A stretch of 59,462 nucleotides of DNA from Nitrososphaerota archaeon (GTDB lineage Archaea; Thermoproteota; Nitrososphaeria_A; Caldarchaeales; JAVZCJ01), in the NCBI GenBank assembly GCA_038874475.1, contig JAVZCJ010000003.1, forward strand, positions 1-59,462, written 5' to 3'. Under the pieces are notes generated by a model. The model ran no database searches. It had not been told where the DNA came from and saw only the letters and a list, made by a program, of their open reading frames with translations. Each line of letters begins with the position of its first letter. The first letter of the stretch is position 1. The position numbers and the translations under genes are program-made. Below are positions 9,454 to 11,818 of the stretch, in pieces.

Positions 9454-9873
9454 CTATTTTAAATATGTTAATTTATTATCTTTTTCTTTCTTTTTCTCTT
9501 CTATTGATATTTTAGGTAAAGGTATAGGGGGAGGAATATTTAAGCTTCTTGTTAATACTGTTGCTTCAATTATTGAGAAATTTACAATAGTTTGAATTAA
9601 ATAAGGCGGTAAAGCTTCTTTTTTATCATACTTCTCAACGATTTCAAATATTTTTTCATCATCTTTTAAGATCCCTTCTCCTTTAATATTTATATGAGCA
9701 ATAGATGGAGAATAGGTAATATCTGTAATGAATGAAAATTTTATTCCATCTTCTATTTTTTGTATATTTGTTACATTTACATTTGTTGAAATATTAAATT
9801 GAGTTGAAATAAATTGATCATTTTCAATAAATTTTTCAGCTGAAAAACTTTTTAAAAATATTCTGACCTGCAT
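9454..9873 (-). CDS. Conserved archaeal protein, possibly SecB-like fold
   Basis: A 139-aa protein if it starts at the ATG at 9873 (MQVRIFLKSFSAEKF). A longer in-frame extension to 10053 reads antisense through the start of the IF2 gene and is rejected. The body has alternating strands (QFNISTNVNVTNIQKI, SIAHINIKGEGIL), then a helix (YLIQTIVNFSIIEATVLTRSL), the Pro-rich NIPPPIPLP and a charged tail. This strand-helix layout recalls SecB-like archaeal proteins, but I do not recognise it surely. It ends 10 bp before kae1 and is divergent from the IF2 gene, so it probably heads the kae1-bud32-rdgB operon. Confidence 0.6.
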   Translation of the reverse strand: MQVRIFLKSFSAEKFIENDQFISTQFNISTNVNVTNIQKIEDGIKFSFITDITYSPSIAHINIKGEGILKDDEKIFEIVEKYDKKEALPPYLIQTIVNFSIIEATVLTRSLNIPPPIPLPKISIEEKKKEKDNKLTYLK

Positions 9874-9949
9874 TTTAATTAAATTTATTTCAAACTTGAA
9901 TATAATCCTTTTTTTATAAAAATATTTTTCATCTTTAGAAAAGCTATTC

Positions 9950-10009
9950 ATGTAGAACTTAAATATAAGCATATTGCAAAATAAAATTGAAAATATAAAG
10001 GTGTTGAGA
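9950..10009 (+). promoter_or_regulatory. Promoter and ribosome-binding site of the IF2 gene
   Basis: A TATA-like element (CTTAAATATAAG, about 9958-9969) lies about 40 bases before the ATG at 10010. A Shine-Dalgarno-like AAAGGTG sits just before the ATG. The message would therefore have a leader of about 15 nt. The spacing to the divergent gene starting at 9873 fits a shared intergenic promoter region. Confidence 0.4.
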
Positions 10010-11818
10010 ATGTCTTTAAGATCACCTATAGTAGTTGTTCTAGGCCACTCCAAAAAATATTAATTTTTTTGGGGCTTAGTAGATCATGGAAAAACTAGTT
10101 TACTAGATAAAATGCGTGGAACATTAGTTGCTGCTAGAGAAGTAGGAGGAATAACTCAACATATTGGTGCTAGTTTCTTTCCCCTAGATGCTATTATTAA
10201 TGTTTGTAGTAAACTTATAGAAAAATATAATATCACATTAAAAGTTCCTGGAATTCTATTCATCGATACTCCTGGACATGCTGCTTTTACAAATTTAAGA
10301 AGAAGAGGAGGTTCAATGGCTGATATAGCTATATTAGTAATAGATATAATTAATGGAGTTCAAGAACAAACAATAGAAAGTATTCAACTTTTAAAATCTA
10401 GAAAAACTCCATTTGTTGTAGCAGCTAATAAAATTGATTTAATACCTGATTGGAAACCTTTTGAAAATGAAAATTTTCAAGAAACTTTTAATAAACAATC
10501 TAAATATGCTAAAGAAGAATTTGAAAATAGAATTTATAAAATGATAGGAGATTTATCTTTTTTAGGTTTTAAAAGTGATTTATATACAAATATAAAATCT
10601 TTTAAAGAAAATATTGCAATAGTTCCAGTAAGTGCTAAAACTGGTGAAGGAATTCAAGATTTATTGCTTGTTATACTTGGTTTATCTCAAACTTTTCTTA
10701 AAGATAAGCTTACATCAATTATAACTACTAGTGAAGGTTCAATATTAGAAATAGTTGAAGAAGAAGGTTTAGGTGTTACAGCTAATTTAATACTTTATTC
10801 TGGAAAAATAAATGTTGGCGATAGATTTGCATTTATGAGTAAAAGCGGGCCAACTATATCTAAAGTAAGAGCTTTGCTTTTACCTAAGCCTTTAGATGAA
10901 ATGAGAGACCCTAGAGATAAATTTACTCAAGTAGATTCTATTTCAGCTGTTGCAGGTGTAAAAATTGTTGCAAATAATCTAGATGATGCTATCCCAGGTT
11001 CACCTTTAATAATTATTGATAAACCAGAAAATGAAAATGAGATAATCGATAGGATCAATAAAGAAGTTGAAAGTTTAAAAATAAATGTAGATAGAATTGG
11101 AGTAATTTTAAAAGCAGATACATTTGGCACTCTTGAATCTGCAGTATATTTCCTAAAAGATAGAGGAATACCTGTCAGAATAGCAGATATTGGAGACATT
11201 TCAAAAAGAGATGTTTTTGAGGCAAGTATTGTTAAACAAAAAGATGAATTTTTAGGTGTTATTCTAGCTTTTAATGTTCATATTCCTCCAGATATTGAAA
11301 AAGAAGCTATTGATAAAGGAGTAAAAATTTTTAAAGAAAAAATATTGTTTAGGCTTTTTGAAAATTATCTTAATTGGGTTGAGGAAGAAAAGAGTAAAAA
11401 AGAAAGAATGAAATTTGAATCTTTAATTAAACCTGGTAAAATAAAGATTCTTGAAGGATTTGTTTTTAGAAGAAGTAATCCAGCAATTTTTGGGATTGAA
11501 GTTTTAGCTGGAAGAATTAAACCAAAATATAAATTAATGAATTTAGAGGGAAAAATTATTGGTGAAATTTCTCAAATACAAGATAAAGGCCAAAGTATTC
11601 CAGAAGCTACTATTGGAGCTAAAGTAGCAATTTCTATGAAAGAACCAATAGTTGGAAGACATATACATGAAAAAGAAATTCTTCTTGTAGCAGTTCCTGA
11701 GGAGCATGCAAGAGCTTTATTAAAAGATTATGCTCATCTTCTTAAAGAGGATGAAAAAGAAGCATTGAATGAATTAATAGAAATTCAAAGAAAAGAAAAA
11801 ATATTATGGGCAAGATAA
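10010..11818 (+). CDS. infB: Translation initiation factor aIF5B/IF2, interrupted by a 30-nt BHB intron
   Basis: GTPase that joins ribosomal subunits and positions initiator tRNA. Exon 1 (10010-10048, 13 codons, MSLRSPIVVVLGH) is followed by a 30-nt insert, and exon 2 runs 10079-11818. The spliced frame is 593 codons (592 aa) and restores the G1 loop GHVDHGKT. Then come the DTPGH switch II motif and NKIDL for guanine recognition. Domain II has the EGLGVTANLILYSG barrel, and the C-terminal part contains domain IV. Unspliced, translation stops after GHSKKY. A start at 10112 would lack the P-loop and cannot make a functional GTPase. Normal archaeal length, about 590-600 aa. Confidence 0.94.
10049..10078 (+). 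other. Bulge-helix-bulge intron in infB mRNA (30 nt)
   Basis: This is the clearest of the three. Exon 1 ends CTAGGCCAC and exon 2 begins GTAGATCATGG, so joining gives GGC CAC GTA GAT CAT GGA (GHVDHG). Fold: outer helix UCUA/UAGA, central 4-bp helix GGCC/GGCU, 5' bulge ACU cut AC^U, inner 8-bp stem CCAAAAAA/UUUUUUGG with a 7-nt loop, 3' bulge UAG cut UA^G. All parts of a canonical hBHBh' motif are present. The intron contains an in-frame TAA. Confidence 0.9.

Follow-up and report, generated by a model that had tools for sequence, protein, structure and literature searches.

Bulge-helix-bulge (BHB) introns are known from archaeal tRNAs and rRNAs, and among protein-coding genes the established location is cbf5, whose pre-mRNA intron in Desulfurococcales and Sulfolobales is 16-44 bp long (Watanabe 2002; Yokobori 2009, PMC2738675) and splits the catalytic codon (PMC2738675). 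In 2020, a study of a BHB in the 5'UTR of HVO_1309 of Haloferax volcanii stated that cbf5 was then the single further archaeal mRNA for which a BHB intron had been described (PMC7714728), and unproven BHB predictions in other genes have been mentioned with reference to a rudivirus paper and a Sulfolobus chapter (PMC2738675). Our search, which covered 5.39 million open papers, found only cbf5 and the one 5'UTR case as mRNA BHB introns, and no BHB intron in infB or EF-1alpha, consistent with the remark in a first-pass annotation of the present locus that no report was known for infB. A different kind of element, the IF2 P-loop intein (GHVDHGK/T, the slash marking the insertion point here and below), occupies the same region of infB and is removed after expression to restore the P-loop.

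The window analysed here, meaning the whole 59,462-nt stretch of contig JAVZCJ010000003.1 from a Nitrososphaerota archaeon, carries a 30-nt insert in infB/aIF5B. Like the cbf5 intron, which is cut by a hetero-oligomeric EndA, the insert is short, forms a BHB in a protein gene, splits a catalytic motif and is patchy among relatives. It differs in its host, a translation GTPase, in occurring in other archaeal lineages and in having a canonical motif where that of cbf5 is often relaxed; splicing is proven for cbf5 and predicted for infB. With archaeal tRNA and rRNA introns the insert shares a 4-bp central helix and two 3-nt bulges cut between nucleotides 2 and 3, and the same enzyme would be expected to act on it; unlike them, it lies in an mRNA, has coding exon arms and holds no homing endonuclease within its 30 nt. 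The HVO_1309 BHB is likewise an mRNA substrate of the splicing endonuclease, but it is non-coding, and no reading frame depends on its removal. The IF2 inteins, in contrast, are long elements removed by protein splicing, have their junction a few codons downstream and are not homologous to the insert. A BHB intron is an element of a kind already known; the gene is new and the breadth is unexpected, as the putative introns would occupy an essential host gene, infB, at two insertion sites in about nine families, together with EF-1alpha.

A putative BHB intron in the P-loop of infB

Positions 10049-10078 are almost certainly an archaeal BHB pre-mRNA intron, with splicing predicted, because the only deletion that restores the reading frame is the one bounded by the cut sites of the motif. 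The interruption falls in the GTP-binding site (P-loop) of aIF5B, an essential protein-synthesis factor. The infB frame opens with an ATG at 10010, has GGTG upstream at 10000-10003, and runs through MSLRSPIVVVLGH into SKKY and the stop codon TAA at 10061-10063, with VDHGKT following past the insert; the frame of exon 2 picks up at 10079 as VDHGKTSLLDKM. An unspliced message gives only a 17-residue peptide ending at this TAA, and functional aIF5B therefore requires splicing. Joining 10048 to 10079, at a predicted junction of GGCCAC with GTAGATCATGG, yields a 592-aa aIF5B with an intact GHVDHGKT. This product scored above the curated NCBIfam thresholds for two archaeal IF-2 models, NF003078 and TIGR00491 (aIF-2), and aligned over its length with solved archaeal aIF5B (5fg3, 6.7e-183; 1g7r, 7e-169), its N-terminus fitting those of both PDB entries. 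The gene was single-copy in this genome (G000; 30 contigs, 97.5% complete, 3.1% contamination), where two further infB matches were weak and lay inside long frames without stops.

Table 1. Predicted features of infB/aIF5B and its insert (positions in the window).
Feature	Position	Strand	Basis or remark
Exon 1 of infB/aIF5B, 13 codons, MSLRSPIVVVLGH	10010..10048	+	GGTG upstream; match to 5fg3/1g7r N-terminus
Outer helix, 5' arm UCUA (TCTA), pairing with 10080-10083	10039..10042	+	Motif search
Central 4-bp helix, 5' arm GGCC	10043..10046	+	Motif search; one G-U pair in helix
5' bulge ACU	10047..10049	+	Predicted cut 10048/10049
Putative 30-nt BHB intron with in-frame TAA (10061-10063)	10049..10078	+	29-nt version at the same place in sister species
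Inner 8-bp stem, 5' arm CCAAAAAA	10050..10057	+	Folding and motif search; 7-nt loop
Inner stem, 3' arm UUUUUUGG (DNA TTTTTTGG)	10065..10072	+	Folding and motif search
Central helix, 3' arm GGCU	10073..10076	+	Motif search
3' bulge UAG	10077..10079	+	Predicted cut 10078/10079
Exon 2 of infB/aIF5B, VDHGKTSLLDKM... to stop	10079..11818	+	Product passes NF003078 and TIGR00491
Outer helix, 3' arm UAGA (TAGA)	10080..10083	+	Motif search

The insert and its flanks can fold into a canonical hBHBh' arrangement (TCTA GGCC ACT CCAAAAAA...TTTTTTGG GGCT TAG TAGA), and cutting both bulges between nucleotides 2 and 3 removes exactly 10049-10078. In a scan of deletions of 1-79 nt at offsets of -40 to +59, this was the only one to restore VLGHVDHGKTSLLDKM, and its ends allow no shift, even of one base, since the register on either side encodes other amino acids. 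Across the two strands of the window, 118,808 positions were each taken as a 30-nt insert with its own flanks, and the canonical motif with at least 4 outer and at least 4 inner pairs occurred here alone. When the insert was swapped for each of 118,864 window 30-mers, 13 gave the central helix with an inner helix of at least 4 pairs and 2 gave an inner helix of at least 8. The first-pass annotation had claimed a canonical motif, an in-frame stop within the insert, a GHVDHGKT regained on its removal and a very unlikely chance agreement; the coordinates from 10039 to 10083 confirmed every helix, bulge and predicted cut site, the TAA is in place, and the single motif and unique deletion bear out the remainder. 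Counting against the motif is its short outer helix of four pairs, three of them A-U. Free-energy folding of the insert was not significant (z = -1.15), the overall fold being not unusually stable, and the evidence for an intron was taken from position and comparison, with thermodynamic stability not used. A search of 9700-10700 with Rfam models (group I and II introns and other RNA families) yielded nothing at E-values up to 1. An intein at 10049-10078 was rejected, as 30 nt is too short and includes an in-frame stop, and the location is not that of a cbf5-type intron, the host gene being infB/aIF5B.

The same site in relatives

The sister species (G001), the only congener found, carries an insert at the same place with the same BHB but 29 nt long, with one T fewer, and is 97% identical to G000 across the spliced infB protein. 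Comparison of the two sequences shows the predicted motif kept while the loop length varies. A 29-nt insert shifts the frame if kept, and its retention in the mRNA is therefore untenable. Between the two species the infB exons had a dN of 0.013 and a dS of 0.126 (dN/dS about 0.1), and aIF5B is therefore under purifying selection in both. Uninterrupted infB codons were found in 34 of 42 order-mates searched (families f2-f4; 27 read directly). Related infB genes were the comparison that the first-pass annotation had proposed, and a second intact infB, which it had regarded as evidence against an intron, was absent from the genome search; its reading of a pre-mRNA BHB intron, with splicing predicted, is supported by the motif, the 29-nt version in the sister species and the recurrence described below. 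In five f4 genomes the infB match began only at about residue 18, and an apparent intein at GHVDHGK/T was present in the two that were read (L047, L048). Apparent IF2 P-loop inteins were seen in G004, G025, G240 and G255 (L047, L048, L135, L136), with a C-terminal HN before TSLLDK or TTLLDK, a few codons from the BHB site.

Two genomes of the distant family f19 (G064 and G085) had BHB introns of 18 and 17 nt at the infB site of the window and a second intron at GGIT/QHIG. The inner stems of the P-loop-site introns differed between G000/G001 and the f19 pair, and all were paired. The first introns of G064 and G085 share TCC...GGGGCT ends with the intron of the window, and may be homologous to it or similarly constrained.

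A second infB site in switch I

We scanned infB in 398 genomes of the phylum and then searched the N-terminal region in 80 of them; the gene proved to be interrupted in many species. Switch I holds an insert of 17-33 nt at G[GA][IM]T/QHIG in families f8, f16, f19, f30, f31, f33, f35 and f36. At 22 loci this insert forms a canonical BHB, and removal at its predicted cuts restores GGITQ, GGMTQ or GAMTQ; the same holds for G110; the infB loci with switch-I BHB introns are L036-L038, L040, L049-L068 and L134. The switch-I introns of G064 and G085 are 18 and 20 nt long and stand alongside their P-loop-site introns. Counting against the pattern, the inserts at L056 and L064 have one mismatch in the motif, and that of G099 (f28; L132) is without a canonical motif. 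Across 21 distinct switch-I sequences, the first five inner pairs were 97% paired, versus 48% (maximum 70%) when inner arms were exchanged between species, a comparison that leans somewhat in favour because a central helix and one or more inner pairs had been conditions of the scan. Each position of the inner helix showed four to six standard pair types, with many two-sided (compensatory) changes. Stops in infB of G098, G158 and G041 were rejected as introns, being C-terminal or isolated.

EF-1alpha and cbf5

About 0.79 Mb of the 1.92-Mb genome was sampled in stretches for BHB motifs. A structure-only scan was noisy in this A/T-rich sequence: the first 442 kb yielded 1,965 canonical motifs, and a larger sample searched with looser settings gave 7,767. 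Most of the candidates inspected bridged adjacent genes or took the wrong frame, and beside infB only EF-1alpha survived; one in an exosome subunit gene (L083, 10740) was rejected, its frame being correct unspliced. EF-1alpha of G000 has a 32-nt canonical BHB intron in its P-loop at GHVD/HGK (L093:5096-5127; G000:C1:84696-84727), with a matching 31-nt intron in G001 (L123), and the gene was uninterrupted in relatives with full-length matches. Between G000 and G001 (L004, L123), the infB intron and the EF-1alpha intron both show a length difference of exactly one base (30/29 and 32/31 nt), which lies in a homopolymer of the hairpin, with the stems kept. EF-1alpha of G223 and G283 (f44; L128, L129) carries inserts of 27 and 25 nt at LVI/IGHVD that are BHB-like with a weak outer helix.

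The cbf5 genes of G000, G001 and G004 (L081, L079, L076) have a BHB insert of 13-14 nt at the catalytic codon, GGTLD/P; that of G000 is 13 nt (L081; G000:C3 near 155.4 kb). These inserts have no inner pair or one, and are shorter than the 16-44 bp of crenarchaeal cbf5. The 13-nt insert was missed by the scan because the scan requires an inner helix, which this insert does not have; it was located by homology, and further minimal introns may have been overlooked. By analogy with the proven case, the cbf5 insert serves as an internal positive control. In G058 and G133 (L077, L080) cbf5 is also interrupted near GGTL, where the scan gave no canonical BHB restoring the frame.

Alternative explanations

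Automatic ORF calling produces a 568-aa ORF from an ATG at 10112, and infB might begin there with its P-loop simply lost. The product would lack the GHVDxGKT P-loop that inspected relatives have, however, and the codons flanking the insert encode an intact P-loop motif in both species, so we find this start scarcely credible. Nor do we give any real weight to a pseudogene or an assembly or sequencing error: a stop-bearing insert is how a dead gene is expected to look, and the assembly consists of 30 contigs at 97.5% completeness and 3.1% contamination, but the same insert is present in a separately assembled sister species, the exons evolve at a dN/dS of about 0.1 in the sole copy of an essential gene with no second intact infB found, and EF-1alpha of both species repeats the pattern.

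In programmed ribosomal bypassing the insert would stay in the mRNA and be skipped by the ribosomes, as happens in phage T4 gene 60 and the yeast mitochondrial byps, and elements of comparable length are known. An insert that is short, hairpin-forming and stop-containing suits such a mechanism, yet bypassing needs matching codons, and the take-off codon CAC (10046-10048) differs from the TTA (10076-10078) that precedes the resume codon. The bulge and helix geometry moreover agrees exactly with that of EndA substrates, recurring at two infB sites with compensatory changes, and cbf5, an established EndA-spliced gene, has a like insert in this genome; we consider bypassing very improbable. A reading that keeps the cleavage holds that EndA cuts the BHB mainly to regulate infB, through processing, decay or circular RNA, with ligation controlled or minor. 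EndA processing in the 5'UTR affects HVO_1309 expression in Haloferax (PMC7714728), and a negative regulatory role has been proposed for the cbf5 intron (PMC2738675). Regulation can add to splicing but not replace it, because there is no functional aIF5B without ligation, which makes regulation as the main purpose unlikely; any regulatory role of the infB intron is one that we infer.

Implications of interrupted translation factors

The loci described here suggest that mRNA splicing in archaea is much commoner than in the literature that we found. To a broader proposal we give an even chance: archaeal mRNA BHB introns would be a widespread, recurrent class that has repeatedly entered invariant catalytic codons of essential genes (the P-loop and switch I of aIF5B, the P-loop of EF-1alpha and the catalytic Asp of Cbf5), either by insertion that targets conserved sequence, as with inteins, or as introns that are hard to lose. 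If true, translation factors would be made dependent on tRNA-splicing enzymes, which could couple protein synthesis to tRNA maturation. The origin and spread of archaeal mRNA introns also becomes testable by comparison. Annotation will probably mistake genes of this kind for truncated or frameshifted ones, a concern given that aIF5B and EF-1alpha both serve as phylogenetic markers.

Proposed splicing and its machinery

With 10049-10078 read as a BHB intron, the infB transcript would fold into the canonical hBHBh' structure, whose two cut sites bound the deletion that restores the P-loop. A hetero-oligomeric tRNA-splicing endonuclease, built from two EndA-type paralogues, would cleave the transcript at 10048/10049 and 10078/10079, and RtcB, the tRNA ligase, would join the exons into an mRNA for the 592-aa aIF5B. 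Two EndA paralogues (PF01974) were found in G000 and G001, and two such genes in every genome checked. One, matching 3p1z chain B at 1.8e-48, has conserved the FAVY Tyr and the DHAPF His, and the other, divergent at these motifs, matches EndA entries more weakly; from their sequences, the two types are consistent with a heteromeric endonuclease. Heteromeric EndA is reported to have a broad substrate range that includes non-tRNA substrates (PMC7714728, PMC2738675). RtcB, the exon ligase, was not found in the 97.5% complete G000 assembly and was present in G001, where it is cut off by a contig end (L073, L131); an assembly gap is the likeliest reason for its absence from G000, because the G001 gene sits at a contig end. 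Many tRNAs in the sampled sequence were predicted by ARAGORN to contain introns.
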